This document shows, piece after piece, positions 8,268-55,541 of a stretch of DNA of 64,000 nt. Position 1 is the first letter of the stretch; each line of letters starts with the position of its first letter. The notes under the pieces were generated by a model that was not told where the DNA came from, did not search any database, and worked only from the letters and a program-made list of their open reading frames with translations. Made by a program: the position numbers and the translations under genes. The stretch spans positions 4,526,001 to 4,590,000 of the forward strand of contig NZ_CP021780.1 of assembly GCF_002192415.1 (NCBI RefSeq). The letters are read 5' to 3'. Source of the stretch: Paenibacillus donghaensis (lineage in GTDB: Bacteria; Bacillota; Bacilli; Paenibacillales; Paenibacillaceae).

Positions 8268-8744
8268 ATTAAAGTCGGCGAACGGCTAATAGTGTGATGA
8301 AATTGGGGAGGTCTGTTGGCTTAGAGGACTCAACGAGCGAGGGTTTGAACAAATTCCTGCAAAAGTACATCTTTTTAGCATAGTTGGCTAGTCCGCAGAG
8401 CAAATTCCTGCAAAAATACATCCTTTTAGAGTAAATAGCGCCCTTTTGGCTGATCGAGAGGTAAATACCTGCACTTTTGCAGGCATTTCCGTGCTTATCC
8501 GCCAAACGGCCAAGTAGAAATGGCTTCGCCGTCCTCTGCAAGAGGCGGCATCCATTTCTGCGAGAAATAGAAGGATAATTGATGGTGTGAAACATATAAA
8601 TTATATTTTAAAAAACCTGCACTTTTGCAGTTTTGATTCAGGTATGGCTCAGGCATAGCATTAACCAAAAAAATTAGCTACTCTTAAAGTTACTGTATAG
8701 GTCCAGCGAGGATTAGATTTTAGTTTGGAGCTTTCTGACTGAAC
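8268..8744. repeat. long intergenic repeat, copy 1 (F-F-R-R family IV)
   Basis: First of three neighbouring copies beginning ATTAAAGTCGG. It carries two modules of the type AATTCCTGCAAAAGTACATC (8350-8378 and 8401-8431) and two inverted ones with CCTGCACTTTTGCAGG (8461-8488 and 8610-8635). It is about 100 bp longer than copy 2 because a hairpin element sits between the third and fourth module. The whole 8.03-9.42 kb stretch shows no gene. Confidence 0.85.
8512..8609. mobile_element. hairpin repeat element H inserted in repeat copy 1
   Basis: About 98 bp that is absent at the matching place in copy 2, where AAACGGCT runs straight into AAAAAACCTGCAC. It forms an imperfect hairpin (AGAAATGG..CGCCG, CCTC loop AGAGG, CGGC..CCATTTCT) followed by GCGAGAAATAGAAGGATAATT and an AT-rich end. 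The element at 2419-2549 shares both arms and the tail. It has no coding capacity; a replicative or MITE-like origin is inferred. Confidence 0.7.
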
Positions 8745-9115
8745 ATTAAAGTCGGCCACCGGCTAATAGTGTGATAAAAATTGGGGAGGATTGTTGGCTT
8801 AGAGGACTCAACGAGCGAGGGTTTGAGCAAATTCCTGCAAAAGTACATCTTTTCAGCAGAGTTGGCTAGTCCGCAGACCAAATTCCTGCAAAAATACATC
8901 CTTTTAGAGTAAATAGCGCCCTTCCAGCTGATCGCGAGGTAAATGCCTGCACTTTTGCAGGCATTGCCCTATTCATCCCCTAAACGGCTAAAAAACCTGC
9001 ACTTTTGCAGGTTTTGGGTTCAGGTATGACAATTACCAAAATAATAGCTACTCTTAAAGTTACTGTATAGGTCCAGCGAGGATTTAGATTTTAGTTTGGA
9101 GCTTTCCGAGGGAAC
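8745..9115. repeat. long intergenic repeat, copy 2 (F-F-R-R family IV)
   Basis: Second copy, 371 bp, without the hairpin insertion. At its junction with copy 1 lies GTTACTGTATAGGTCCAGCG, which resembles the GTTACTACTTAGGTCC end of family I elements. Modules repeat the F-F-R-R order of copy 1. Confidence 0.85.
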
Positions 9116-9370
9116 ATTAAAGTCGGCCAACGACTAATAATGTGATGAAAATTGGGGAGGTCTGTTGGCTTAGAGGACTCAACGGGCGAGGGGTGAGCAA
9201 ATTCCTGCAAAAGTACATCTTTTTAGCATAGTTGGCTAGTCCGTAGACCAAATTCCTGCAAAAATACATCCTTTAGAGTAATTAGCGCCCTTTCGGCTGA
9301 TCGAGAGGTAAATACCTGCACTTTTGCAGGTTTCGGCTCAGGTATGGCAATAACCGAAAAATTAATTAGC
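9116..9370. repeat. long intergenic repeat, copy 3, truncated (F-F-R-R family IV)
   Basis: Third copy, alike over the first part and ending just after the third module (CCTGCACTTTTGCAGG), then diverging at ATTAATTAGCTGGG. No gene is seen in it. Confidence 0.8.
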
Positions 9371-14222: not shown

Positions 14223-14503
14223 AATATCGATCCCTCCCAAACCCTCCCTTCCAAGGGAGGGCCCCAAAGGGTTGCACCCTCTGGACACCCGCAAGCTTGG
14301 CGAATGAGTCTGGCGGCACTGTGTTTTGGAGGGTGGGAGGGTGGAGCGCTTATCCCTGCGGGACCGCTTGAACGCCGCAGGGGCTGGCCCGCTATCCCTG
14401 ACGGGATGCAGGCCTGAGATTAAGGTCTAAGGCGAGCTGTTCCTGCGGAATGCGCAAGACCTTACCCACAACAAAACTAAATAATAGTTTCCTATCCATG
14501 CAC

Positions 14504-14549: not shown

Positions 14550-14715
14550 AGTTTGGAAAATGGTTGCTACTTAAGCTCCAGTTAGGATGTAGAGTGCTCC
14601 CTGGAAACTTTGGAGTCATTAGATGCGAAACTGCAACTAATTTCAGCCAAAACGTCCATTATCAGCCAAATAGGTGCAAATCTGCAACTAATTTCGAGTA
14701 AAACAGGCCTATGAC

Positions 14716-16153
14716 GATGGCGTAAAATAGTTTGTGTAAGGACCGGGGAGTCTAGTAAACGACAAAAAAGTAGGGTATCCTTGGGATTGCGAAAGTCACC
14801 AAGAAAAGGAGCCCTACTCAATGACCAGTATACAACAAAACCCGTTCCATGATCTACTCGAAAATAGCATCCAAAGTTTTCTGAAAGAAAAGATTGAACT
14901 CATGCTCCGCGAAGAAATCAAAAATTATCTCGGTGTCGAACATCCGGAAGACTCCAATACTCGCAACGGATATTACACCCGCACCTGGGAAACACGCCAC
15001 GGCCTGATCCCCGACCTGAACGTCCCACGGGATCGGCAGGGTCAATTCCAAACGGAGCTCTTTGAGCCCTACCAGCGCCGGGAGGCGTGGCTTGAAGACA
15101 CCGTGATCCACATGTATAAAGGGGGCATGAGCACCCGGGATATCGCCTCGTTTATCGAAAAAATGTTCGGGACCTCGTACTCGCCAACCACCGTGAGCAA
15201 CATCACCGGCACGGTGCTGGAAGATGTTGCCGCCTGGCAAAATCGTCCGCTCTCTAAGCGTTACTCCGTCATCTATCTGGATGGCATGTACGTCAAACTG
15301 AAGCGTCAAACCGTGGCCAGTGAAGTCATCTACATCGCGATGGGGATCGACGAAGACGGGCACCGGGAAATTCTCAGCTTCGCTATTGGCGGCAAGGAGA
15401 GCGCGTATGGCTGGCGGGAAGTGCTGCAAGACCTGCACCGCAGAGGCGTGCATGAGGTGCTGCTGGGCGTCTTTGACGGGCTGGCCGGGCTGGAGGAAGC
15501 CTTCAAGGAAACCTACCCCAAAGCCGATGTCCAGCGCTGTGTGACCCACAAGATGCGCAACACGCTGCCCAAAATTCGGGATACCCACAAGACCGAGATG
15601 GTCGGCGATTTGAAGACCATTTACACCGCACCGGATAAGGATGTGGCACTTGCCAACTTTGATGTGGTGCTGAAGAAATGGGGCAAAATCTATCCCAAGG
15701 AACTAGAGTCCTGGGGGGACAGCTGGATGTGTTGCTGCGCTTTTACGACTACCCACCCCAGATCTGGTACGCCATTTACACGTCCAACCCGATCGAGCGA
15801 ACCAACAAAGAAATCCGCAAACGGCTGCGTCCCATGAACAGTTTGACCAATATGGATGCCGCCGAAAAGATTGTCTATTTGGAAGCGATTGGGTACAACG
15901 AGAGATGGAGCCGACGTGTCCTACGGGGGTTTGGGGACCCCAAAACGAAAGCCGTTTTGAGTAAAAAGTTTGCGGAAAAGTATCCCCCAGCCCAAGACAG
16001 CTAAGAACAAAACCGACGGCAGACGTAACTGGATATGAAAGGAAATTTTCGCAGGGGGATCCCCCCTGACCCTTTGAATACCATTCATATCCATTGTCCC
16101 AATGGATATCCTACAACCCTTAAAAATAATTACACAAACTTCTTGACGCTACC
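14716..16153 (+). mobile_element. IS256-family insertion sequence, 1,438 bp
   Basis: Terminal inverted repeats read GATGGCGTAAAATAGTTTGT on the left and GGTAGCGTCAAGAAGTTTGT on the right (as its complement), followed by GTAA in both. The 8-bp target copy CCTATGAC lies at 14708-14715 and again at 16154-16161. It holds a single transposase gene, which is frameshifted. The target is the apex of a family I repeat element. Confidence 0.93.
14821..16004 (+). pseudogene. IS256-family transposase, frameshifted
   Basis: Mutator-type transposase of about 394 residues if repaired. The first frame carries Asp154 (IYLDGMYVK) and Asp219 (GVFDGLAG) of the DDE triad; the third residue, the Glu of SNPIERTNKEIRKR, is in another frame. 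The break is at a run of six G at 15713-15718, where one more base (TGG xGG GGA CAG) restores LESW-x-GQLDVLLRFYDYP. As given, the first frame ends without the Glu, so the protein would be dead. A programmed slip or a base-calling error in the G run are alternatives. Confidence 0.88.
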
Positions 16154-16241
16154 CCTATGACGCTCAAAATCCTAAATTAGGTGCGTTATCACACTTATTT
16201 GCTTCAAAACGGAAAAATTCGGCTAATTAGATGCATTTTCG

Positions 16242-16549
16242 GTTACTGCTTAGGTCCACTGAGGATGTGAATGCTGCACTAGATCCTTTCAAAGAAATTA
16301 GATGCGAAAACGCACTTAATTTCAACGTAAACGGCTGTTAGAAGGGAAATAAGTGCGAATATGCAACTAATTTCGAGTAAATTGCTTGTTCAGCGCTCAG
16401 AATCGGAGATTAAGTGCATTATGGCACTTATTTGCTTCAAAACGGGAAAAATCGGTGAATTAGATGCAGATTCGCAACTAATTCCGTGATTGGACTGATG
16501 TGGCGATCAAAATTTGATGTTCCTTTCCTATGGGGTCCTAAGTAGTAAC
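16242..16549. mobile_element. F-F-R-R family I element, intact, with 8-bp target duplication
   Basis: 308 bp bounded by GTTACTGCTTAGGTCC and GGTCCTAAGTAGTAAC. The 8-bp CATTTTCG occurs directly on both sides (16234-16241 and 16550-16557), and removing one copy plus the element restores the R4 module of the surrounding element (GATGCATTTTCGCAATTAA). Inside are four modules: two of type AATTAGATGCGAAAACGCAC and two inverted. No protein is encoded. This is direct evidence of transposition. Confidence 0.85.
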
Positions 16550-16650
16550 CATTTTCGCAATTAAATCGGTGGTCTGGACGTATGAAAACGATCATGGAGC
16601 TGAGTCTGAGCTGTTCTTATCATACGTAGTCCTATGTAGTAACAAAAAAT

Positions 16651-16927
16651 GTAACTACTTAGAGCCTTGCCCTTCCGAAGCAGGTTTGAGGTTACCAAAG
16701 AGTAACGCTAAGGTGGCTACAGGGAAAAACTGCCGTTAAATCCAGACAAATGTGCGGTTTCCATGGGATATAGGGAGAAGTTACCGCTAAATTGTCCATC
16801 CAGAGCGTATTGAGTGGATCAGACGGAATTAGCGGTAAAAACTTCCTATAACCTTATCGAATCGCCTTACTGAGATGAAATAGCGGTAGAATTTCCCTAT
16901 AATTCCTTGCTGGTCCTAAGTAGTAAC
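16651..16927. repeat. F-F-R-R family II element
   Basis: Ends GTAACTACTTAGAGCC and GGTCCTAAGTAGTAAC match family I, but the inside is different: two modules like TAGGGAGAAGTTACCGCTAA (16721-16742, 16769-16794) and two inverted ones like TTAGCGGTAAAAACTTCCTA (16826-16851, 16877-16902). No matching target duplication is seen. No gene lies in this stretch. Confidence 0.75.
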
Positions 16928-22790: not shown

Positions 22791-22807
22791 ATTGTGGCCT
22801 CCTCAAA

Positions 22808-23115
22808 GTTTTACAAGCATCAGCTTCATGGAATCCGCTTCGGTAAAACTCGCTTCGTAAGCATTCGCTTAGTTTTACAAGCATCAGCTTCATGGAATCC
22901 GCTTCGGTAAAACTTACTTCGTAAGCATTCGCTTAGTTTTACAAGCATCAGCTTCATGGAATCGCTTCGGTAAAACTCGCTTCGTAAGCATTCGCTTAGT
23001 TTTACAAGCATCAGCTTCATGGAATCCGCTTCGGTAAAACTTACTTCGGAAGCATTCAATTAGTTTTACAAGCATCAGCTTCATGGAATCGCTTCGGTAA
23101 AACTTGCTTCGTAAT
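22808..23115. repeat. five tandem copies of a 64-bp hairpin-forming repeat
   Basis: Copies start at GTTTTACAAGCATCAGCTTC at 22808, 22872, 22936, 22999 and 23063, spaced 64, 64, 63 and 64 bp. Each unit contains GTTTTAC and its inverse GTAAAAC around 30 bp apart, so each can fold on its own. The unit length is not a multiple of three and stops occur, so it is not coding. It lies just upstream of the yqzK-like gene. Confidence 0.9.
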
Positions 23116-23267
23116 TCTGCTCGTCCTCCACCTTATGCGCCGGGAGCCGGATTTATGAATGTGCCGCCACGGACACGCACGGCTACAGAAAATCTATTAT
23201 ACTGTGCTTAGCACAATAATCCAAGCAACCAGACAGATCCGCTGGTGCGCTCACTCCTACCCTCGCT

Positions 23268-23465
23268 CTTAAACTAACTGTATTTTGTACAACTAAAAAG
23301 CCACTTTTGACGGCAAAAGTCACTTTAACTGTATTTCCTGCAGCTATATTTCCTCCATAGCCCCAAATACGAGGTTTCGCCCCGATTTAACTGTACGAAA
23401 TACAACTAAAGTTACTTTTCAGACGAATCGCTTCATTTTAAATGTATAGAATGCAGTTAGTCGCT
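23268..23465. repeat. F-F-R-R family V element
   Basis: Four modules: AACTGTATTTTGTACAAC (23271 on), AACTGTATTTCCTGCAGC (23327 on), then two in the reverse sense, ACTGTACGAAATACAAC (23389 on) and AATGTATAGAATGCAGTTAG (23440 on). A second copy lies at 55354-55541. No gene is seen between 23,116 and 23,516. Confidence 0.75.
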
Positions 23466-30951: not shown

Positions 30952-31025
30952 GATTTCACTCCTCAAAGTTTTACTACAAATATAAGAGTTTATAGGTTCC
31001 ACACCATAAATTAGCCTTCTATTTC

Positions 31026-31343
31026 GTTACTACTTAGGTTCCAACGAGGTTTAGATGTTAATCCGGAACGTGATGGCGTAAATAAATGCGAAAGTGCAAC
31101 TAATTCCAGCTGAAACCTCTATCAGGAGGCAATTAAGTGCGATATTACAACTAATTTCGAGTAAATCAAGTTCTCTACGTTCAAACGCCGGAATTAAGTG
31201 CATTTTTGCAACTATTTGCTCCAAAACGGAAAAAGACGGCTAATTAGATGCAATTTTGCAACTAAATCAATTGCTTGGACTTAGGAAACCACTACGAAGT
31301 CAAATCTTCTATGTTCTCATCATACCAAGGCCTAAGCAGTAAC
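31026..31343. mobile_element. F-F-R-R family I element, intact, with 8-bp target duplication
   Basis: 318 bp from GTTACTACTTAGGTTCC to GGCCTAAGCAGTAAC. TCTATTTC flanks it on both sides (31018-31025 and 31344-31351). Modules: F1 31081-31107, F2 31131-31161, R3 31190-31222, R4 31243-31273. It is inserted 75 bp upstream of bkdB and so has changed the upstream region of that gene. Confidence 0.85.
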
Positions 31344-31353
31344 TCTATTTCTT

Positions 31354-31398
31354 AAAAAAACGGATACCGCCTCTTACAGAGAACCGCGAAGCCGTTTC
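31354..31398 (-). terminator. hairpin with T-tract between bkdAB and bkdB
   Basis: Minus strand: AAACGGCTTCGCGG, a loop, then GGCGGTATCCGTTT followed by more T. Shape and arms resemble the H hairpins. If active it stops transcripts from bkdAB before bkdB, so bkdB would need its own promoter. Confidence 0.5.
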
Positions 31399-31497
31399 TT
31401 CTTACACACTTCACATTACACACTTCACAGAATTTGATTTGCTTCGATAGAATTTGCTTTTTCCGTATTCACATACACATGCGCGCAATATAGTAAA

Positions 31498-31684
31498 TGC
31501 CTGCATTTGTACATCTTTTTCGAGCCACCGTAGGAGTTAAGCTCCAATTCCTGCAAAAATACATCTTTTTAGAGTAAATATCGCCTTCCAGCCTGCTTAA
31601 ACCGGAAATACCTGCACTTTCGCAGGTATTTACTCCAATTATACTCAAATTGTCTAAAATTCCTGTACTATTGCAGGCTTTCGC
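31498..31684. repeat. F-F-R-R family IV element, isolated copy
   Basis: Modules CCTGCATTTGTACATCTTTT (31498 on), AATTCCTGCAAAAATACATC (31552 on), then inverted AATACCTGCACTTTCGCAGG (31606 on) and AATTCCTGTACTATTGCAGG (31658 on). It is the same family as the triple copy at 8.3-9.4 kb, 22 kb away. Confidence 0.75.
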
Positions 31685-31745
31685 TCCTGGCTCCTGGCTC
31701 CTGGCTCCTGGCTCCTGGCTCCTGGCTCCTGGCTCCTGGCTCCTA
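31683..31745. repeat. tandem heptamer (GCTCCTG)8 plus one variant
   Basis: Eight perfect GCTCCTG units and a ninth GCTCCTA, then degenerating AGCTCCTAGCG sequences. Period seven in a non-coding stretch. The remaining 31,746-32,006 shows no gene. Confidence 0.95.
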
Positions 31746-32006
31746 GAACCTAGCTCCTAGCGCTTAGCCATAGCCTTTAAGGCATAGCTCTTAGCACAGC
31801 GCATCGTACATAGCTCCCAATACCCGGCTTCTGCAAGCTTCTACAAGCCAACGTTCCAACTCTAATTCCGGGCAGCAACTGGATAACTATGGTCAGTTAA
31901 AATTCCGTCTTTGGGTTGGATTCCGTCTTAAGTTGAATTACTTCTTAAGCTGAATTCCGTCAACGTCAACAGCAGAATCCCTACATCAGCCCGGCTTCTG
32001 CCGTGC

Positions 32007-32993
32007 TTAATATTGCGCCAGGCGCAGCATTTCGGCCTTCACCTTGTCCTTGTTGAGCAAGAAAAACTTCTCCATCGGCGGGCTGATCGGCATCGCCGGC
32101 ACGTCGGGGCCGCAGAGGCGGAAGATCGGCGCATCCAGCTCGAACAGACAATGCTCGGCGATAATCGCAGCCACCTCGCCGCCGATGCCGCCGGTCTTGT
32201 TGTCCTCATGGACGATCAGCACCTTGCCCGTCTGGCGGGCGGCCGCAATAATGGCCTCGCGGTCCAGCGGCTGCAGCGTACGCAGATCGAGAATATGCGC
32301 GGTGATGCCTTCCTCACGCTCCAGCTCCTCCGCGGCCTGCATTGCAAAATGCAGCGGCATGCTATACCCGATAACCGTGATATCGTCGCCTTGCCGCAGC
32401 AGGTTGGCTTCGCCGATCGGCACCGTATAGTCGCCTTCCGGCACCTCTCCCTTGATCAGCTTGTAGCATTTCTTGTTCTCGAAGAACAGGACCGGATCAG
32501 GGTCGCGTACCGCCGCCTTCAGCAGCCCTTTGGCATCATAAGCCGAATACGGCGCAACAATCTTCAGCCCCGGCGTGCCGAAGAAGATCGATTCCGGGCA
32601 CTGGGAGTGATACAGCCCGCCAAAAATACCGCCGCCAATCGGCGCGCGGATCACCAACGGACAATTCCAGTCGTTGTTGGAGCGGTAGCGGATTTTGGCC
32701 GCCTCGCTGATAATCTGGTTCGTGGCCGGCAGCATGAAATCGGAATACTGCATTTCGGCAATCGGCTTCATGCCATACATCGCCGCGCCGATCGCCACCC
32801 CGGCAATCGCCGACTCCGCCAGAGGCGTATCCAGCACGCGCTCCTCGCCGAACTGCTCCTGCAGCCCTTTGGTGGTGGTGAATACGCCGCCTTTGACGCC
32901 CACATCCTCACCCAGCACAAATACGGAATCATCCCGCTCCATTTCTTCCTTCATCGCCAGCCGGATTGCCTCGATATATTCAAGCATAGCCAT
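32007..32993 (-). CDS. bkdAB: branched-chain alpha-keto acid dehydrogenase E1 beta subunit
   Basis: 328 residues, transketolase-like pyrimidine domain plus C-terminal domain. Family motifs: LGEDVGVKGGVFTTTKGL near 27-44 and DTPLAESAIAGVAIGAAMYG near 55-74, with the Glu that activates thiamine diphosphate. It pairs with BkdAA as an alpha2beta2 decarboxylase for the keto acids of Val, Leu and Ile. Starts 3 bp after the bkdAA stop with GGGGAGG in that gene's end. Confidence 0.94.
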   Translation of the reverse strand: MAMLEYIEAIRLAMKEEMERDDSVFVLGEDVGVKGGVFTTTKGLQEQFGEERVLDTPLAESAIAGVAIGAAMYGMKPIAEMQYSDFMLPATNQIISEAAKIRYRSNNDWNCPLVIRAPIGGGIFGGLYHSQCPESIFFGTPGLKIVAPYSAYDAKGLLKAAVRDPDPVLFFENKKCYKLIKGEVPEGDYTVPIGEANLLRQGDDITVIGYSMPLHFAMQAAEELEREEGITAHILDLRTLQPLDREAIIAAARQTGKVLIVHEDNKTGGIGGEVAAIIAEHCLFELDAPIFRLCGPDVPAMPISPPMEKFFLLNKDKVKAEMLRLAQY

Positions 32994-36266: not shown

Positions 36267-36568
36267 CTGGTTACTGATAGATCTCAGCGGGGATTGTTGC
36301 TGCTGGAACGTTCGGAGTAAATAAAGGAAAAAGTAAGATACTACTTAGGTTCCAGCTTGGATTAAATATGTCCCACTTGAATGATCGGAGCATTTAGATA
36401 CAAAAGTGGTTACCACTTCGGTTCCTGCAAGGATTTAATATGTCCCACTCGAACGTTTGGGCAATTAAATGCAAAAATTGCTTACCACCTAGGTTACAGC
36501 AAGGATTTAATATGACCCACTTGAATGATCGGAGCACATAGATGCAAATGGGTTACCACTTAGGTCCC
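36267..36568. repeat. array of five left-end fragments of family I elements
   Basis: Versions of GTTACTACTTAGGTTCC start near 36269, 36338, 36409, 36481 and 36552, about 70 bp apart. Each is followed by a left arm and breaks off in the middle of module F1 (for example AGATGCAAAT) where the next end begins. This is what repeated insertion of one copy into the F1 module of the last would leave if the right halves were then lost. No gene lies in 36,125-36,811. Confidence 0.7.
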
Positions 36569-36705
36569 ATCAAGAATTTAGCCTGTTGCCCTGGAAAGTT
36601 CAGAGCAATTAGTTGCGAATATGCATCTAATTCCAGTCAAATCCTCCATCAGAGGGCGAATAAGTGCGTTTCTGCAACTAATTTCGAGTAAATCACCCCC
36701 TCTTA

Positions 36706-38250
36706 CAGTAATTTTGCAAAGAACCTGACATCAAAGCAGTCAGGGAATATTTACAAAAAAAAGAGACTCCATTATCGTAGAAGTATACACACACCCACGA
36801 AAGGAGATCTCTTGGTTAATAAAGTAGCTGAAAAGGTGTTGTTATGTCAAGTCACCCAATGGTTAGATCGCAATGCTTCCTTGCTGCTCGGCGACCGTTA
36901 TGCCAAAAAACTTCACTGGGGCAACACGGTGTTTCTCTTTTTAGAGGCCATATTTAGAGGACGAAAAGGGACTCAAGAGATTGCAGATCATGTAGAGAGT
37001 TCTACGTGGATGCAAGAATGCACCGGAATTCAATCCATTCACCAGTCGTCCTTGAACCGCAAGCTCGGCGAACTGCCCCCGGAGGTGCTCCGTGAGCTAT
37101 ACCTCTCTCGCCTGGAGCATCTGTTGGAACAGGAAGGACCGTCCCTGCCTAAAAAACTGAAAAAGTTGGGCCCCCTCGCAGCAGTCGATTCCACCAGCCT
37201 GACGCTGGGGCGGGTTCGCGGCCAATGGGCCTACCAGCAAACTGGAAAAAACGCCGTCAAGATGCATACCTGCTTGCACCTGACGGGCGAGCACTCGGCG
37301 ATTCCCATGGCTCCGGTGCTTTCTACCGCGACGGTGGCCGATATGGACACTGATGTGCTAGCGGCATTGGTTTGGCAAACAGGGATTACGTATTTGTTCG
37401 ACCGGGGGTATATTCACTACACTCAATATCTACAATGGCTCCAGGCAGGTATTCTGTTCGTCGCTCGCCTCAAGCAAAATAGCAAAGTGAAGGTGCTTAA
37501 AACGCGGAAGGTGAAGGCAGCGGGACTGGTGCTGGATGCGGATGTGGAGCTGACGTGTCCGAAGACGGGGAAAACCGGTGTATTTCGGCTCGTGGAGTAC
37601 AAGTATACGGACAAGAAAAAGAAGGCTCACCTGGTTCGTGTTCTCACCAATCGCTGGGATATCACGGCTCTCGAAGTCGCACAGCTGTACCGCTACCGCT
37701 GGAAAGTAGAACTCTTTTTTAAATGTATGAAATCCAACTTACACCTGAAAAAAATCTATAGCAGCCGGAACCCGGAAGCCGTATGGAACCTGATCTACCT
37801 CTACCTGATTGCGTATGTGCTCTGCGAAGAGCTCCGTCTGTGTTATGCACCGAAGCAGCGAATCGGCCGGGTGCTAGCCGTGTTCCGCTTGTATATAAAA
37901 GGAACGTTGGCGGATTTCCTGAAGCATCTAAACCGACCGAAAGAGCGAACGAGCAAAGGGCGAAGGAACAAGGGAGGCAGACCAGCGACTCGGCCGAAAG
38001 TGTTGAAGCCTAAGCCTATCCAATTTTAGGTAAGTTACAAGTGATGAACAACTGAAGCTAGACCAATCCAAAAAAATGAGGTGTGTGTAGGCTTAAGTGG
38101 AGGTGGCTTTTTTTTGCTTTTTTTGAGTAGACCCCAGACGCGTTCGCCTGGGGCCAGGGAAAGTGTACAAAATACGCCCCTCCCAAAACGTAACTTACAG
38201 TAAATAAGCCTACCACGCCTCCTCGTGTGATGTTCTTTGCAAAATTACTG
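36706..38250 (+). mobile_element. IS4-family insertion sequence, 1,545 bp
   Basis: Perfect 19-bp terminal inverted repeats CAGTAATTTTGCAAAGAAC. The 9-bp CCCCTCTTA is duplicated at 36697-36705 and 38251-38259. It carries one intact transposase gene, so it may be active. About 200 bp between the transposase gene and the right end contain only a T-rich stretch. Confidence 0.94.
36812..38029 (+). CDS. IS4-family transposase
   Basis: 405 residues, full length, from a TTG start with AAAGGAG five bases upstream. DDE residues: Asp126 (AAVDSTSL), Asp197 (YLFDRGY) and Glu300, the last in the IS4 signature Y-x2-R-x3-E-x6-K (Tyr293, Arg296, Glu300, Lys307). The C-terminus is very basic. No frameshift or stop. 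Confidence 0.93.
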   Translation: MVNKVAEKVLLCQVTQWLDRNASLLLGDRYAKKLHWGNTVFLFLEAIFRGRKGTQEIADHVESSTWMQECTGIQSIHQSSLNRKLGELPPEVLRELYLSRLEHLLEQEGPSLPKKLKKLGPLAAVDSTSLTLGRVRGQWAYQQTGKNAVKMHTCLHLTGEHSAIPMAPVLSTATVADMDTDVLAALVWQTGITYLFDRGYIHYTQYLQWLQAGILFVARLKQNSKVKVLKTRKVKAAGLVLDADVELTCPKTGKTGVFRLVEYKYTDKKKKAHLVRVLTNRWDITALEVAQLYRYRWKVELFFKCMKSNLHLKKIYSSRNPEAVWNLIYLYLIAYVLCEELRLCYAPKQRIGRVLAVFRLYIKGTLADFLKHLNRPKERTSKGRRNKGGRPATRPKVLKPKPIQF

Positions 38251-38733
38251 CCCCTCTTATGCTCAAAATCCCAAATTAGATGCCTTTTTGCATCTATTTC
38301 CTCTAAAACACAAAAAAGCGGCTAATTAGATGCATTTACGCAACTAAATCAATCAATCGAACTTAGGAGTCAACCATGCCGCTGAGTGTTCGTTGTTCAC
38401 ATTTGATATGGCATAAATAGCAGTGAGAGTAGATACCGAAGCCTAACTAGATAGTAACCAGAATCGCTTTATTCGGCTGCTGGTGGGTGCTGGCAGTGAT
38501 GGTGGTACTGGTGGTTGATCACGCTAAATTAGCTGCAGAATCGCAGTTCATTCCCCCTGTTTTGCGATCCCGCTAATTAGTTGTACGTTCGTGGTACTCA
38601 TTGGACAAACATTCTGTTACCTGCCAAGCAGCCACTTTATCCGAGTGAACCTTCAGCTAGTCTAAATGTCACTTACATCGCAAGGCTGAGTGGCAGCAGC
38701 GGCGGAGTGGGATGTTGGGATCTGTCTGCAATT

Positions 38734-46283: not shown

Positions 46284-47078
46284 GTTACTACTTAGATCCC
46301 ACTAAGGATGTAACGTGATGCACTAGAGCATCCAGAGAAATTAGATGCGAAAGTGGTTACTACTTAGGACCCCATAGGAAAGGAGCATCAAATTTTGATC
46401 GCCACATCAGTCCAATCACGGAATTAGTTGCGAATCTGGTTACTACTTAGGTCCCCTAGCCCTCTTCGCTCGTAACCCTCGCTTCGATTTCAGACGGTTG
46501 CGGACTCAGGAGCCTCTATTTGCTGTACATAGGCCGTTTTGCAGGATTAACGGACCCAGGAGCCTCTATATCACAGAAAACCCTCGCTTTAGAGCCTGTT
46601 TTGACGACTTAGGGGCTATACGGTCCGTAAGACGTCAAAAGATCGCAGATAGGAGGAAATAGGGGCTATACGGTCCGCTAGAATGTAGGTTACCTAGTTC
46701 AAGGGCTTGGAGTGTCGCAGGGTCCTAAGTAGTAACCGAAAGTGCATCTATTTTCTCTGGAAACGGATGATATCGGGTAAATAAGTGCGAATCTGCAACT
46801 ATTTTCACGCAAATCGCTCATTCAGCGTTCAGAACACGAAATTAGATGCGTTTTTGCACTTATTTGCTCTAAAACAGAAAAAATCTTCTAATTAGATGCA
46901 GATTCGCAACTAATTCGGTGTGGACTGGACTTATCTGGCGATCAGACTTTGATGCTCCTCTCATATTGGGTCCTAAGTAGTAACCAGTTCTGCAACTAAA
47001 TCGGTGGATTGGACTTATTTGGTGTTGCAGCGGCTTAGTCTTGGGTGCTCCTATCCTACGGACGCCTAGGTAGTAACC
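46284..47078. repeat. nested cluster of F-F-R-R family I elements
   Basis: Starts with GTTACTACTTAGATCCC and contains module F1 (near 46339) split by another insertion, the rest of F1 and F2, R3 and R4 (46,745-46,920), a right end GGTCCTAAGTAGTAAC at 46969-46984, then an additional right half ending in CCTAGGTAGTAAC. At least three insertions are stacked here. Confidence 0.75.
46356..46736. mobile_element. composite element with F-F-R-R family III core, 8-bp target duplication
   Basis: 381 bp flanked by CGAAAGTG (46348-46355 and 46737-46744). Removing it with one copy restores TTAGATGCGAAAGTGCATCT, a proper F1 module. The inside begins with an inverted half of a family I element (to 46438), then a family III element: modules CGGACTCAGGAGCCTCTAT and CGGACCCAGGAGCCTCTAT, then inverted AGGGGCTATACGGTCCG twice. 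Confidence 0.8.
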
Positions 47079-47171: not shown

Positions 47172-50100
47172 CTATTCGATGATCTGCAGCAGATTCAGGA
47201 TCATCTGCGCACTTTCGGCACGCGTACCGTTCTGGGCTGCTTCGAACCGCTCGGCAGAGCGGCCCTGCATCAGCCCGAGGGCCTGCGCTTGCCCGATCGC
47301 TTCCCTTGCCCACGGCTTCGCCGCGGCAAGGTCCGTGAATGCCGGTCCGCTGAAGTCCGCCGCAGCCGGGGTCCCGGCTGCATAGGCGTACGCGCGGACC
47401 AGCATCAGCGCCATCTCCTGGCGCGAGATCGCCGCGCCAGGACGGAACGCGCCCGGCTGGCTGCCGTTCACGATGCCGGCCTGCGCAGCCAGGCCTACCG
47501 CATCGGCATACCAGCTGCCAGCCGCCACATCCGTGAAGGTGGACGCTGTGCCACCTTCACCGGCCAAGCCCAGCGCGCGCACGAGCAGCGCGGCGAACTC
47601 GGCCCGGGTGATGTTCCGGTTCGGCTCGAACCGGTCCACACTCACCCCCTGCACCAGCTGCTTGGCGGCCAGCTGCTTGACGGCAGCCAGCGCCCAGTGG
47701 CTGGCTTTCAGGTCACTGAAGCTCTTGTCATAGGCCAGCACCGCATAGGTGCTGAAGTGGCTGACAGACGCTGTCAGTGTGCTGCCCTCCCACTGGCTCT
47801 TGATGTATTCCAGCCCGCCATCCTCCGTGAGGACATAGAGGCCGAGCAGATTCCGGTCTTCCGTGGAATCTACATTCAGAGAGATCGTCAGCGGTGAGTT
47901 GAACTCCCGCAGTGTGAAGCTCTGGCCCGCTGCTGTTGTCAGCGTAAAGGACCAGTCCAGCAGCTCCGTTCCCGTCTTCAGCTGCGCTCCGGCAGCGGCT
48001 GCCGCACGTTCCAGCAGCTGTACCGCGCTGCTGGCAGAGAGCGTGTCTGCACGCAGCGTGATCTTGCTGTCAGCACCGGCCCCGGCCGGGGCCAGCGCAG
48101 TAAGCTGCGCGAGCAGCTGCGCCGGAATCACTACCGACATCCCTTCGGCATTCACGCGCAGCGGAGCATTGCCCAGTAGGTCGGCGGCATTACCCGGCAG
48201 ATTCAGCTCCGTGAGCCGGCCTTCCACCGTAACTACCGCCTCACCCGCTGTATTGCGGGCACCGCTTAATTGCTCGGCCGCTACGTCCACCACACCCGGT
48301 TGCTGCGTAGCTGCTGGCGTTGGCGACGGTGATGGTGTTGGTGACGGCGTCACCACGGGTCCCGGATTCCATCCCGGACCTGGGTCCGGTGTAAGCTGCG
48401 GTGTCGGCGTCGGCTGTGGCGTCAGTGTTGGCTTCACCGTCGGTGTCGGTGTTAGCGTCGGCGTTGGCTCCGCCGTCGGTGTCGGTGTTGGTGTTGGCGT
48501 TGGCGTCGGCGTCGGCTCTGGCTCTTCGCCGTCTCCCGCCGCAGTTACCGTCAGCACATAGCTGCCGTTCAATCCCTCATAACTGGCGCTGATCGTTGTT
48601 TTGCCTGCTGCCAAGGCGGTAAGCTGACCACCTGCGGTGATCCCGGCAACAGCCGGTTCAGAGCTTGTAAACACCACACCAGCCGGAAGCTCCCATAGGC
48701 GTCCATCGCTGTATACGGCTTGTGCAACTACAACCCCTGTGCTTCCCGCCTTCAGCTGCTCCGGCCCTTTCAGCTTCAGGCCTTGGATCACCGGATCAGC
48801 CATGCTGACTTGCAGTTGATAAGAAGCGGTGAACTCCTTGTATGTGACAGAGATCACGGTTGAACCCTCCTGAAGGGCTTCCACCCGTCCTTGTTCATTA
48901 ATGGTAGCGATCTGCTCATTGGAGCTGGCATAGCGAAGCCCTTCTCCTACAAGAGTCCGTTTGCCAGATGCATACACAGTCTCCGTTACCGTAAGGGACG
49001 TTTCCCCCGGCTTCAGCTGAGTTGCGCCCTTAAGCGACAGCCCCTGCAACACATCTACGGTAATGGTGCTCTCCGCGTACACATTCGGATAACCCTGAAC
49101 TGCGGCTCTAACCTTGGCCGTTCCCGGCTGCAGAGCAGTCACCAGTCCGTAGGTGTCTACGGTCACTGATGCGGGTTCAACACCCGGCACCACAGACCAC
49201 TCGATCTTCTGGCGGGTTGCCTGCTCCGGATACACGGCTGCATTCAGCTGCAATTGCTGTCCCGGCTCAAGCTGAGCAGCGATTGGGTCAAGCGTGACCG
49301 ACTGCGGCAGCACCTTGCCAATTACGAGGCGGTCAATCTCTGCTCCGTCCACTGTACGGGCAACAACCGTAATCTGATTGGCTTCAATCTCCACGGCGGT
49401 AAAAATCTGCTCATCTTCATCATAAATTTTCTCCTGCCATACCCGCTCCGTCAGCGCATAGAACTTCGGACCTGACGATCCGCCGATCACATAACGCGTG
49501 CCCTCTCCATCGGCAACCTGCTTGCCGCCTTTCATCGGATATGTCCGAAGGTAGATATGGTCATGTCCGTTCATTACAAGATCCACACCATGCTTGTCAA
49601 ACACCGGCACCCAGGTGGACTGCACCCGTTCATTCGAATAGATGCTGCCGTAAGGCCCCTGATGGAAAAATACCACCTTCCACTTCTTGCCGCTGGCGGC
49701 CAGGTCCTGATCGAGCCAGTTGGCCTGCTCCTCCATCAGACTGGCGGAGACTTCGGTATTCATTACTGCGAAATGCGTATCCTCCAGATCAAAGGAATAG
49801 TTGCTGCCTTTGACGCCGTCCGCACCGTTCTGCGGATTATGGAACTGGGCCAGGTAATCGCCGTTCCCGTTCGTGCCCATCACCTCATGGTTCCCGATAA
49901 TCGGCACCAGCGTCGTGTTCAGCAGCTGCGGCTGGGCGGCATCGAACCACCAGTTCCATTGCTCCTGCTCGAATCCTTTGTCGACCATGTCGCCCGCATG
50001 AACGAGCATCTCTGCATCCGGCATAGTGGCAAAAGCCTTCTCTACCGTATCCTTCCACAGATCAAAGCCTGCCTTGGAGTCTGCCTGCGAGTCCCCGATG

Positions 50101-53100
50101 AACAGGAACTTGGTCAAGTTATCCGCCGCACCTGCCTCATCGGCTGTAGTGAAGCTTCCCAACGCGCTTACTTGGCTGCCACCGTCCCCTACCCGGTACA
50201 CATAAGTGGTTCCGGGAGCAAGCCCAAGCGCTTCCGCCTTATGCACCCGCATGGTTCCGTCGTTGTTGGTGTTGTAAATTCGGCTGTTGCCGTTAATTCT
50301 CAGTACATTGCTGTCCTCAAATGTAGTGAATTCCGACTGCTTCACCAGTTCCAGCACCGTATCCGCCGTCAGCGGCTCGGTCTGCCAGGTGAACTGGCGG
50401 GAAGTCGCGGCATCGGCTCCCATCGTCACGTTGATATTGCGCGGAGCCGCAGTCCCGCTGTAAGCAGCCACGTTGAAGACCATCACCGGACTGAAGGCCT
50501 CGCCCTTCACCGCTTGCAGCTTATAGGATCCTTCTGCAACGGTTGCGGCAGAACTGGTTAACAGCCCGTCTGCACCTGAAGCCGCATCGGCCGTCTCCAC
50601 GCCATCCATGAGCAGCTTCACACCTTCTGCTGCCGCGCCGCTGCTATCTTTTACAGTGAATACTGCATTCAGGCCTTTGGCGATGTCATAATGATTCCAG
50701 CTCAGCTGCAACTGCGTCTTCACCGTGGTTTCCAGCGAAGCACCAATGGAGCTGAGCGGCTGTCCGCTGCCCTCCGTAGAGGTAACCGAACCGGCGGTAT
50801 TCTCAATCACCAGCGGCTTATCGGTCACTCCCGCAGCCTGTTCCAGCGTGAACGGACCGGCATAATCACTGCGCACGGTGTAGCGGATCTGGCCGAGCAG
50901 ATCACTGTCCTTCAGCTTGGCTTCGCTGATCCCGTTAAACTTCAGGGTGACTGTGCCAGTAGCCTCATCAATGACAGGCTCCAGCTGCTGCCCGTTTAAT
51001 CCGCTGCCTCGGACCACTTCCAGCTTCTCTACGGCCGCCGGATCAAATTGGAAGGTGATGAACCCCTCCTTCAGCTTGTCCGCTTTCTCTGCGCTAATGT
51101 CCACTGTATACGCATTGCCGGCATAGACGACCTCCGGCGTATCATACACGTAGAACGGAGAACCCAGATTTACAGTGAAGAACCATTCCTTAATCGTCTG
51201 ATTGCCACTTAAATCACGGATGGCCACCTTCACCTTGTGCCGTCCTTCCCCAAGCGGAACCTTGGGCTTGTAGCTAATCTGTCCTTTTGGCGGATAGAAT
51301 CCATGCTCCACCAGCTCGCCATCCACATAGACGCGGGTGGCGTCCGGATTAATTAGCGTAGTACCGGGGTGAGCTACGGGGTCATACCCGTCATCCTGGC
51401 CGGTAACGGATAGGGTCGGGGTTGCCGTTTTGACGATTTCATTCACACCCGGAACTATTTCCGTGAACACCGGAGGGGTTCTGTCTTCATTCAAAGGACC
51501 ATACACAGCGCGGATATCATCCACATAGATAGCTCCGGCATTTTTCTTCAGATTGCTGGTTTCCATGTAGCGCACGGGCATGTCCATCGATAGTGGTGTG
51601 GTTCTGCCCTTCGGCACGTTCACCTCTACATACTTCCAGCCTGTCCAGTTCACCCCGTTCACCTGATCGGTGAAATCAACAGGGCTTGCCGCATTGTTGC
51701 CGTCACGGATCTGTCCACGCAGCCAATGTTTGTTGCCGTCGCCATAGATCCACATGCCGATCTTCTCGGGATAGCCGGGAATCTGCACCCGGTTCTCGGT
51801 AGAGGTTGCTGTCACATACGCCCCCGAGGTCCCTGTCATTCCGCTAAAATCATATTCCAGCTTCAGCGATTTGCTGCCGCTGCGCACATAATCCAGATCA
51901 GTTACCTCGCTGATCAACACGCTTTTGGCAGCTGAACTGGAGGCTCTGTATTTGCCGATGCCGGACTCGAAATCCTCCATCACTACCGGAGGCAGTCCGA
52001 CATTGACTTCAAAAGAAGTCTCAACTTCTCCATAACGGACAATAATTCTGCCGTTCTGCCCATTCTCAGCGGTTGCCGTGAGCACGCCGTTCTCATCCAC
52101 CGAACCGATATTGCCTTCCACCTGCCACTCGAAGCTGTGGTTGTCAGCCTGAACCACCTGGCCACCACGCAGCGCCTTCACGCTCAGCTGTGCGATGGCT
52201 CCGCTGGTATAGGTCTTGATCTCGTCGGGAAACTTCAGCTCGGTCAGCGAATCCACTACTTCAAGGGCTCCGCTCCCCTCGGCAGCGCCCGCTGCCGCAG
52301 TAACTTTCCCTGTGCCTGCCGTCTTGCCTGCAGTGAACAGCCCATTGCTGTCAATCACGCCAAGCGCAGGATCTGCTTGCCAGCTCAGCGCGCCTTCAAC
52401 TGGCGTTGGATGCCCGTTCGCATCCACGCCTGCCGCTGTGAAGCTATAGCTTGCACCCTGCAGAATTCGCTCGGCATTCGGTTGAATCGCCAGCTTCGCA
52501 GCCGTGGCCAGCTCCGGCGCTGTGTTGACCAGCAGCAGCCCGTTGCCTGTCTTGCGCTCGAATCCGTCCGAGCCTTGATTCAGCATCTTCACTCCGCTGG
52601 TGCCAGGCATTCTGGCCGCAAAAGTCGACGAGCCGCCGCCATCCAGATTCATCGCCTGCACCGCGCCCATGTCCTTCAGCATCTGGGCCAGCTCCGGCGT
52701 CTCTACACCTTCACTGAAGCCGGGCGAGCGTCCATCCACTTCGAACAGGATGATGCTGCCATCCGCTTTGGTCCCGATCGCTGTGCGGGGATGCACCCCT
52801 GCCGGACCAACGTTGGTCTGCACCACGCCATCCTTGACCAGCGGACCTTGTCCGCCGATAGCCACGCTCACCTGATCCCACTCACCGTCCAGCTGGAAAC
52901 GGGCGGAGACTTCATCGCCTTGTGCCAAGCCTTGCAGCAACTGGCGGGAAGTGCCGTGTGCCGAGAGCACCACCTTGCCGGCTACCAGCGGAGTATCTCC
53001 CAGGTTGCTGCGGATCTCGGACACCTTCAGGCTCAGGGTCTGTCCGCTTTTGACCTCGCCGGAGATGATGTCCAGCACCACTTCGTCCCCTTCGGCGGTC

Positions 53101-53711
53101 GATTTGGTCGATGTATTATAATCTGCTGTATAAAGCACCAGCTGATCGGTATTTCGGTAACGGTTGATGCTGGTCAAATCACTTGTTTGTCCATTAATAG
53201 TCACCGTCCGGGTCAGCTTGGGCGTGCCGTAGATCGAACCGCCGTCCGCCTTCAGACCGAAGGTGTACCCCGAGCCGCTGTTCAGGATGACTCCATCGCC
53301 CATAAACAGACCATTCGGCACGCCTGTGGCAAAACCGGAGATTTCGTAGAAATCACCATTGATCCCAGCAACCACACGGTTGCCCGGCGCATCGGCATGC
53401 TTGGCCATTTCGGTAACACCTTTCATCCCGTAGACCTTGCCGTCTTTGGTGCCTGCCTGCAGTTCCAGATTGGGCTGCTGCGGATTGAACTCTACAGCAT
53501 GAACCTTCTGATAGCCGCGCGCATCCTGCAGATCTGTCCATGAATAGCTGGCTCCCGGAGCAAGCTCCGCCTGGCGCGAATCAATTACGGTACCATAGCT
53601 TTCCGATGCCAGAGCAGAATTGGAAGCGTCTGCGATCAGACCCGGCTGAACTAACGAGAGAAACAGAGATGCGATAATTGCAGCATTCCACAAACGTAAA
53701 TACCTTCTCAC
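47172..53711 (-). CDS. 2,179-residue SLH surface protein with phosphodiester glycosidase and metallophosphoesterase domains
   Basis: Secreted, cell-wall-attached protein. Signal peptide at 1-29 (GTG start after GGGAGGG). Residues about 80-397 are a phosphodiester-glycosidase (NAGPA/DUF2233) domain with NGDFYEISG and [11 protein letters not shown]. Two Ig-like domains follow (400-571), a carbohydrate-binding-like segment (577-740), an Ig-like part (745-848) and a cohesin-like domain (853-985). A purple-acid-phosphatase N-domain (about 1088-1192) leads to a metallophosphoesterase (1200-1465) with Asp1207, Asp1241, Asn1274-His1275, His1350 and His1383/1385. Then three Big_2-type domains (1470-1723), a Thr-Pro linker (1730-1805), a linker domain, and three SLH repeats (1997-2179) that bind pyruvylated wall polymer. 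Probably removes or recycles phosphate-bearing glycans; inference. Confidence 0.9.
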
Positions 53712-55052: not shown

Positions 55053-55296
55053 GCGGTTGTGTCTACTGTGGTGTGTCTGCTGCGATTATGCCGTTTACGA
55101 CGCTACGGTTGTGTCTACTGTGATTATGCCGGTTATGACGCTGCGGTTGTGTCTACTGTGGTTATGCCGGTTATGATACTTCGGTTGTGTCTACTGTGAT
55201 TATGCTGGTTACGACGCTGCAGTTGTGTCTACTGTGATTATGCCGGTTATGACGCTGCGGTTGTGTCTACTGTGGTTAAGACGCTTCAGTTGTGCG
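55053..55296. repeat. 38-bp tandem repeat, about six copies
   Basis: GTTGTGTCTACTGTGATTAT units recur near 55057, 55109, 55147, 55185, 55223 and 55261, 38 bp apart except the first gap of 52. Variants alternate between GTGATTATG and GTGGTTATG. Non-coding; starts 10 bp past fabZ. Confidence 0.85.
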
Positions 55297-55353: not shown

Positions 55354-55541
55354 CCTAACTGCATTCCGTACAGCTATATTGGCTGATTTGGCCGACGGGA
55401 GAGGTTTAACTGTATTTCGTACAACTAAATCTCTCCGTTTAGCCATTTAGGCCCATTTTGCTTAGAAATAAATGTACAAAATACAGCTAAATTCGTTTCT
55501 CGCCCATTTTCACGCCAAATAAATGTACGAAATACAGTTAT
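55354..55541. repeat. F-F-R-R family V element, second copy
   Basis: Modules AACTGCATTCCGTACAGC, AACTGTATTTCGTACAACTA, then inverted AATGTACAAAATACAGCTAA and AATGTACGAAATACAGTTAT. It is followed by half of the GAACTTAAGAATG element near 55,546. No gene is seen in 55,297-55,626. Confidence 0.8.

Follow-up and report, generated by a model that had tools for sequence, protein, structure and literature searches.

Intergenic DNA of Paenibacillus donghaensis carries quartets of a 20-27 bp bipartite site, two forward copies (F1, F2) followed by two inverted copies (R1, R2), with centres ~50-52, 60-62 and 50-52 bp apart, and this F-F-R-R arrangement is independent of the IS66-type transposon ends that enclose many of its members. 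The quartets are extragenic, near-exact in spacing and constant in the order of orientations; their spacing is maintained in descent, their sites are used as targets by IS66 elements, and the IS66 insertions form a layer of their own. Quartets are present in at least five GTDB families of one order. The window is the whole 64,000-nucleotide stretch analysed, positions 4526001-4590000 of the 8.54-Mb chromosome. A preliminary description of this DNA had reported intergenic F-F-R-R elements built from at least five families of modules (I-V); its observation is confirmed, with two separate phenomena mixed in it, and its interpretation as a whole is partly supported. The elements found in the window are the following.

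8349-9330, plus strand: three tandem family IV copies, first modules at 8356, 8834 and 9204.
14563-16643, plus strand: older family I copy, F1 at 14617 and F2 at 14668, interrupted after F2 by an IS256-family element and with R2 split by the element at 16242-16549 (extent by eye, end-motif matches).
14716-16153, plus strand: IS256-family element inside the older family I copy, with the 8-bp duplication CCTATGAC on both sides (sequence reading).
16234-16241, unstranded: left copy of the 8-bp target duplication CATTTTCG (flank comparison).
16242-16549, plus strand: family I quartet of 308 bp between ISBst12/IS66-type ends (end matches, quartet scan, target duplication).
16296-16322, plus strand: module F1, family I (module match, quartet scan).
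16347-16373, plus strand: module F2, family I, 51 bp from F1 (module match, quartet scan).
16407-16433, minus strand: module R1, family I, centre 61-62 bp from F2 (quartet scan, palindrome axis).
16457-16483, minus strand: module R2, family I, 50 bp from R1 (quartet scan, palindrome axis).
16550-16557, unstranded: right copy of the 8-bp target duplication CATTTTCG (flank comparison).
16651-16927, plus strand: family II quartet with the same kind of ends, 20-mers at 16718, 16769, 16831 and 16882 (ends, quartet scan).
23275-23459, plus strand: family V quartet without ISBst12/IS66-type ends (module match, quartet scan, end count).
31026-31343, plus strand: family I quartet with ends, 20-mers at 31086, 31137, 31192 and 31242, 8-bp duplication TCTATTTC (quartet scan, flanks).
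31500-31677, plus strand: family IV quartet (module match, quartet scan).
36552-38458, plus strand: family I quartet, F1 ~36607, F2 ~36658, R1 ~38274, R2 ~38325, with an IS4-family element between F2 and R1 and a degenerate right end.
36706-38250, plus strand: IS4-family element with the 9-bp duplication CCCCTCTTA (sequence reading).
46284-47077, plus strand: nested family I copies surrounding the family III element (ends, quartet scan).
46439-46736, plus strand: family III quartet with the same ends, 20-mers at 46500, 46550, 46609 and 46659 (quartet scan).
55356-55540, plus strand: family V quartet without ISBst12/IS66-type ends (module match, quartet scan, end count).

The positions given earlier for the five families agree with the sequence checks in the window. 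The 8-bp duplication around the element at 16242-16549 had been missed; outside both of its copies lie the two halves of the family I module of the outer copy. The family III element sits centrally in family I module sequence, and its 8-bp flanks are unequal (CGAATCTG, CGAAAGTG). Of the three family IV copies described at 8.3-9.4 kb, only the second is a regular quartet: R1 and R2 of the first are separated by 148 bp, and no more than F, F and R were found in the third.

Other sequence features adjoin these elements or recur in the genome. Left of the first family V quartet lies a tandem array (22807-23130) with a period of 127, about two units of 63-64 bp, AGTTTTACAAGC / TTCGGTAAAACT; similar AAGTTTTGTAAGC repeats occur in the syntenic region of other species. 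A (CTGGCTC)n simple repeat (31690-31760) follows the family IV quartet immediately, 5.4 copies of a 38-bp tandem repeat, TGTGTCTACTGTGATTATGCCGGTTATGACGCTGCGGT, occupy 55072-55290, and an open reading frame of 2179 aa on the minus strand (47172-53711) adjoins the nested elements. The 42-bp repeat AAGGTCAAAGGCGGGCTGTTCCTGCGGAATGCGCAAGACCTT stands in tandem at several loci of the genome, with a similar single stretch at window positions 14400-14460. Arrays of the GTCGCTCCCTATGCGGGAGCGTGGATTGAAAT type, with a period of ~66 bp, at ~149-154 kb and 6.544 Mb of the genome resemble CRISPR arrays.

The layout was confirmed by a scan for two direct and two inverted 20-mers at lags of 49-53, to which no module sequence was supplied. 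It returned 112 places in 1.264 Mb, 10 of them in the window, versus 0 in one local shuffle per region; part of the 112 places are 51-bp tandem arrays and not quartets. Distances were then measured between module matches over 1.264 Mb of this genome, with no spacing imposed. The F-F distance is 50-51 bp in family I (39/40), III (28/28) and IV (13/13), and 51-52 bp in II (9/9) and V (7/7). Measured between matrix centres, the F-R distance is 58-60 bp in all 40 family I cases, a value ~3-4 bp short of the palindrome centre, 61-62 in 13 of 15 for family II, 59-60 in 29 of 30 for III, 60-61 in 13 of 13 for IV and 62 in 7 of 7 for V; the exceptions of 107, 112 and 113 fit a missing module. The R-R distance is 49-52 bp in all but four cases (105 and 121 in family I, 81 twice in family IV). 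A layout common to differing module sequences, as had been proposed, is borne out; the preliminary description had missed that the spacing is alike in all five families.

The same distances were found beyond this genome. In five genomes of four other GTDB families, searched with one module over 30 loci (six per genome, duplicate clusters removed beforehand), 25 of 40 distinct clusters were F-F-R-R and one was FFFRR; with spacing left free, FF was 50 bp in 25/28, FR 60 bp in 26/27 and RR 50 bp in 23/27. Among 23 quartets hand-picked from many families and genomes out of matches already at lag 50-52, so that their outer distances are a selection criterion, the middle distance was 61-62 bp in 17 and 52 (three times), 64, 67 and 70 in the remaining six; we think that the value of 52 reflects a palindrome axis misplaced by 5 bp.

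Imperfect palindromy is clear in the modules of families I, IV and V, a feature that had also escaped the preliminary description: in the tested example, 0.69-0.75 of the arm pairs are complementary. Palindromy is lower in family II (0.56) and weak in family III (0.47). A common frame, TA near the left edge and CTA near the right edge with differing inner bases, runs through the module consensus of families I, II, III and V, and the family IV consensus fits this frame poorly. The module families may therefore not be wholly unrelated, and the frame would suit divergence of a recognition site from one type. Spacers of families IV and V are 0.58 and 0.59 identical versus 0.54 when shuffled, compared with 0.80 and 0.76 for their modules, which were chosen by score and are hence biased; spacing is free of that bias.

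The ends reported as shared by families I-III are real, and they are separate from the layout. They are the terminal repeats GTTACTACTTAGGNCC of an ISBst12-type IS66 transposon, because IS66 genes lie between them, 8-bp duplications accompany them and they resemble, in a comparison by eye, the ends of ISDge4. This ISBst12-group element has ends GTGACTACTCAGCA / GTAACTGCTCAGCA, one gene and an 8-bp repeat, as given in the excerpted text of PMC12898284. Since the ends belong to the transposon, 'same ends' and 'same layout' are separate facts. A related end GTTACTGTATAGGTCC had also been proposed for family IV; a left-hand copy is visible by eye, and no right-hand copy was seen. The end motif GTTACTACTTAGG, allowing up to 2 mismatches, has 17 matches in the window versus 0.40 expected, and a 16-bp form has 276 + 281 matches in the whole genome versus 9 + 11 for the reversed pattern. 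Exact 8-bp flank duplications accompany 16 of 53 adjacent end pairs (1.26 Mb), and none of the 53 has a duplication of 3-7 or 9-12 bp.

The search suggested earlier for a protein gene flanked by the same ends found IS66 transposase genes. Three intact IS66 copies in this genome have ends GTTACTACTTAGGNCC with at most 1 mismatch in either end, each within an exact 8-bp duplication centred in a module-I site (3/3); a fourth, weaker IS66 match is without such ends. The three copies are 51-52 per cent identical to their relative in another Paenibacillus (L134), where the same 16-bp ends lie 1634 bp apart around a 490-aa IS66-family transposase and no 8-bp duplication is visible. In other genomes, nine further loci have end pairs separated by 1.5-1.64 kb; six of the nine show the exact 8-bp duplication, and all six proteins tested from such loci are IS66 transposases. 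A single IS66 transposase gene lies between the same ends, with NF033517 in 10/10, at L134, L180, L181, L182, L100, L133, L152, L153, L155 and L158. The end-bearing copies of families I-III share with the ISBst12-group IS66 elements and their MITEs (PMC12898284, excerpted text) the terminal inverted repeats and the 8-bp duplication, and such ends enclose the single transposase gene of the group at the ten loci named. This group accounts only for the ends around many I-III quartets; such ends are not found on every quartet.

Insertion targets were tabulated after omission of pairs 60 bp or less apart and pairs with more than 1 mismatch in the 8-bp flank, which left 21 of the 53 pairs plus the three IS66 copies. 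Among these 24 insertions in this genome, all with at most 1 mismatch in the duplication, 17 are in module-I-like sites, with both halves recognisable in 15. By eye, the sequences bordering these ends seem palindromic in P. mesophilus, P. gorillae, Saccharibacillus and Paenibacillus sp. J5C2022 as well. The main text of PMC1525189 treats five other IS families that target REP sequences and does not name IS66; relative to that text, IS66 insertion into intergenic palindromic sites is an addition. In Paenibacillus sp. J5C2022 (L094, L102, L123), IS66-ended elements carry their own GAGCGATAGC modules among TTTGTACGATTTTTCGTACAAA palindromes with a 52-bp period, showing equal nesting with other sequences.

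Quartets occur apart from these ends. When ends were counted within 160 bp and with up to 4 mismatches, both flanked 9 of 28 family I, 6 of 8 family II and 14 of 21 family III quartets. Both ends were found around none of nine family IV quartets, with one end-like match near three of the nine, and no such end was found near the seven family V quartets; the claim that this is not an ordinary MITE family is upheld. At 6.55 Mb, a degenerate end pair with a near-duplication encloses a family IV quartet. A search with the family III module by itself gave 408 matches in this genome versus 6 in the reversed control; this module has 187, 142 and 185 matches in G017, G014 and G081, where a search for the end motif gave no match, and it is abundant in G103 and G116, two genomes in which the end motif falls short of its control.

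In a survey of 398 genomes of the class, matches to the family III motif stayed close to control level beyond the order, apart from weak exceptions (G282, 12 vs 1; G158, 9 vs 2; G293, 5 vs 0), and several families within the order are also at control level. Matches to the family V motif were confined to the genus, where 29 of 120 genomes have them. When 20 relatives were sampled over 40-120 kb each, five had quartets (G003, G011, G015, G031, G114), two had only 51-bp arrays (G006, G066) and one a 63-bp array (G097); in the other 12, neither quartet nor array exceeded the score thresholds of 72 and 76, and one of these 12, G040, has a quartet at the syntenic locus described below. Alignment of G034, G028, G015, G031 and G048 revealed no clean empty site, and a syntenic search around 55.4 kb gave matches mainly to the flanks of the quartet.

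One intergenic region was followed through the genus. A query covering window positions 30973-32008 and parts of the flanking genes had matches in 100 of the 100 genus genomes searched, and the region was read in 51 of them. A free-lag scan of the 51 gave 54 matches versus a mean of 4.05 in shuffles. Of these matches, 28 fall at lag 50-52, spread over 25 of the 51 genomes, and the remainder at other lags; only the former were counted as quartets. About six module types, grouped by eye, occur at the locus (GTGGAAAAAG, ATTGCAC, TAGTTGG, CCTGCAC/GTTGCA, CGGAC, GGGAATT and TAGCCGG type). Module type and distance from the gene vary by clade, and the quartets therefore look like separate gains that were later inherited. 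One orthologous quartet is common to ten species. F1 has been deleted in G135, and so the quartet appears to be dispensable at some loci. Orthologous quartets of five clades have 0.63 gap openings per 100 aligned columns versus 2.47 in their flanks, and 0.032 versus 0.096 gap openings per mismatch.

Gene positions were taken from a home-made ORF caller for 73 clean quartets, none of which lies inside a predicted gene. Their neighbours are convergent in 29 cases, tandem in 38 and divergent in 6, compared with 120, 624 and 120 for all adjacent pairs. The excess of convergent over divergent pairs has p = 0.0001 against equal numbers and p = 0.048 when weighted by intergenic length, the lengths being inflated by the elements themselves. 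The polarity of the quartet bears no relation to gene direction (18 cases, families I and IV, p = 1).

A helical repeat of ~10.2-10.3 bp per turn brings the distances into phase, as 5, 6 and 5 turns, so the four sites would share one face of the helix. Two distances, ~51 and 61-62 bp, are the basis of this argument. The periods of tandem arrays in the same genomes lend it some support: 14 arrays, several with a common motif and not all surely intergenic, have a period of 51-52 bp and one palindromic array has 63, among many other periods. The 63-bp array, in G097 (L176, 13022-14361), has 21 copies. The palindromic arrays of 51-52 bp have the inter-palindrome distance of the quartets; they differ in running head-to-tail, in ~3 to 27 copies, without the F-F-R-R order.

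Our preferred reading, held tentatively and a little short of even confidence, is that the quartet is a DNA platform whose four recognition sites, on one helix face, would hold a putative protein assembly, with the IS66 layer on top. Each site would bind a dimer or a two-domain DNA-binding protein, and the four bound units may act as a single complex to wrap, bend or bridge the DNA between genes, for the most part at gene ends. Protein binding, the shared face and the joint action at gene ends are all deduced from spacing and position. The recognition sequence would differ among families through a shift in preference of the protein or set of paralogues. In the IS66 layer, ISBst12-type elements insert mostly into the centres of module-I sites with 8-bp duplications, and elements with IS66 ends have carried many family I-III quartets through the genome. 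The broader conjecture, a helically phased four-site platform of constant 5-6-5-turn geometry with interchangeable sites and a diversified protein family, organising gene ends at up to hundreds of places per genome, is possible and rather doubtful.

Among known systems, the quartets resemble the REP/BIME/REPIN sequences, which are short extragenic palindromes in many copies and both orientations and are targets of IS insertion (PMC1525189, PMC3733652, in the parts consulted). They too are extragenic palindromes of 20-40 bp in many copies, weakly palindromic in family III, yet they failed two defining tests of REP/BIME: the module consensus sequences have no GTAG or CGTC tag, and no association with a Y1 (RAYT) transposase was found, modules I-V being absent within ~1.5 kb either side of the five Y1 matches in this genome. 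A REPIN with Y1 transposase was rejected on the latter count. The quartets further differ in a fixed number of modules in F-F-R-R order at nearly fixed spacing, where REP/BIME form variable dimers and clusters, and in having several module sequences per genome in one layout. REP/BIME sequences bind gyrase, IHF or Pol I. To our knowledge, no bacterial intergenic repeat has a four-site geometry of 5-6-5 turns. Searches of the open-licence literature for Paenibacillus/IS66 repeats, palindromic repeats, REPIN and BIME returned no description of these elements, and Rfam has 0 matches at gathering score in the window, which excludes a known RNA family for the window; the earlier failure to recognise them as a described repeat class agrees with these searches.

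The FF and RR pairs could alternatively be the two ends of an unrecognised transposon, joined in a non-autonomous element, with a transposase of its own for each module family. Consistent with such an origin are the inverted pairs at both sides, the large number of copies, the separate gains by different clades at one locus and recent expansions in the form of repeated near-identical family III quartets. It expects a gene between F2 and R1 in an autonomous copy, but the sole FF-gene-RR arrangement within 2 kb (1.264 Mb) is the 1.6-kb case produced by the IS4 insertion with its own 9-bp duplication, and was rejected as an autonomous element. Two wide family II pairings of 4.8 and 11.8 kb, each with a single F and several genes between, look accidental. 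Internal deletion would not yield a middle gap of ~60-62 bp in most quartets across families, the Y1 transposase matches have no module near them, and spacing is kept in orthologous copies. This origin is unlikely.

Less probable again are nucleoid or topology elements that would be read by structure, as cruciforms held by HU-like proteins, RNA or gyrase, in the manner proposed for REP325 of E. coli and the BIMEs. The palindromic modules of most families, their location and their copy number agree with this, and BIMEs have been proposed as domain barriers (PMC6907758, in the part consulted). However, half-sites within a family conserve sequence beyond mere complementarity, and family III is weakly palindromic.

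The folding check proposed in the preliminary description showed that family I forms a strong RNA fold (z -7.3 on the plus and -5.3 on the minus strand), and the position mostly at gene ends would also suit a bidirectional 3'-end transcript of 190 nt that forms a long interrupted stem or four hairpins and acts at mRNA ends or as a small RNA. Strong folding follows from the inverted order alone, as with any inverted repeat. Covariation was examined in 104 modules from 26 distinct family I quartets (28 before removal of near-identical ones). Two outer arm pairs have excess complementarity (z 4.7 and 4.3), but most pairs have none beyond column composition and two are depleted (9-22, 17 of 104 vs 33 expected; 0-31, 9 vs 18.8); nothing clear emerged in the other families, and a hairpin RNA kept by compensatory change was rejected. 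With the weak palindromy of family III modules, the indifference of polarity to gene direction and the lack of an Rfam match in the window, an RNA role is distinctly improbable. That the quartets are only the diverged internal repeats of one IS66 MITE family is highly improbable and was rejected: both ends on many family I-III quartets, 8-bp duplications in many end pairs and the few end-like matches of family IV speak for it, but families IV and V lack end pairs and family III is abundant in G081, G017, G014, G103 and G116, where the end motif is absent or below control.

For the preferred platform reading, a spacing that is near base-pair constant across several bacterial families while the site sequence varies points strongly to a multi-protein DNA complex that has not been described. 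IS66 transposons are a suggested addition to the insertion sequences that land on intergenic palindromes. The quartet, together with spacing mutants, would serve as bait for the protein and may offer a route to the function of intergenic repeats in Gram-positive bacteria.
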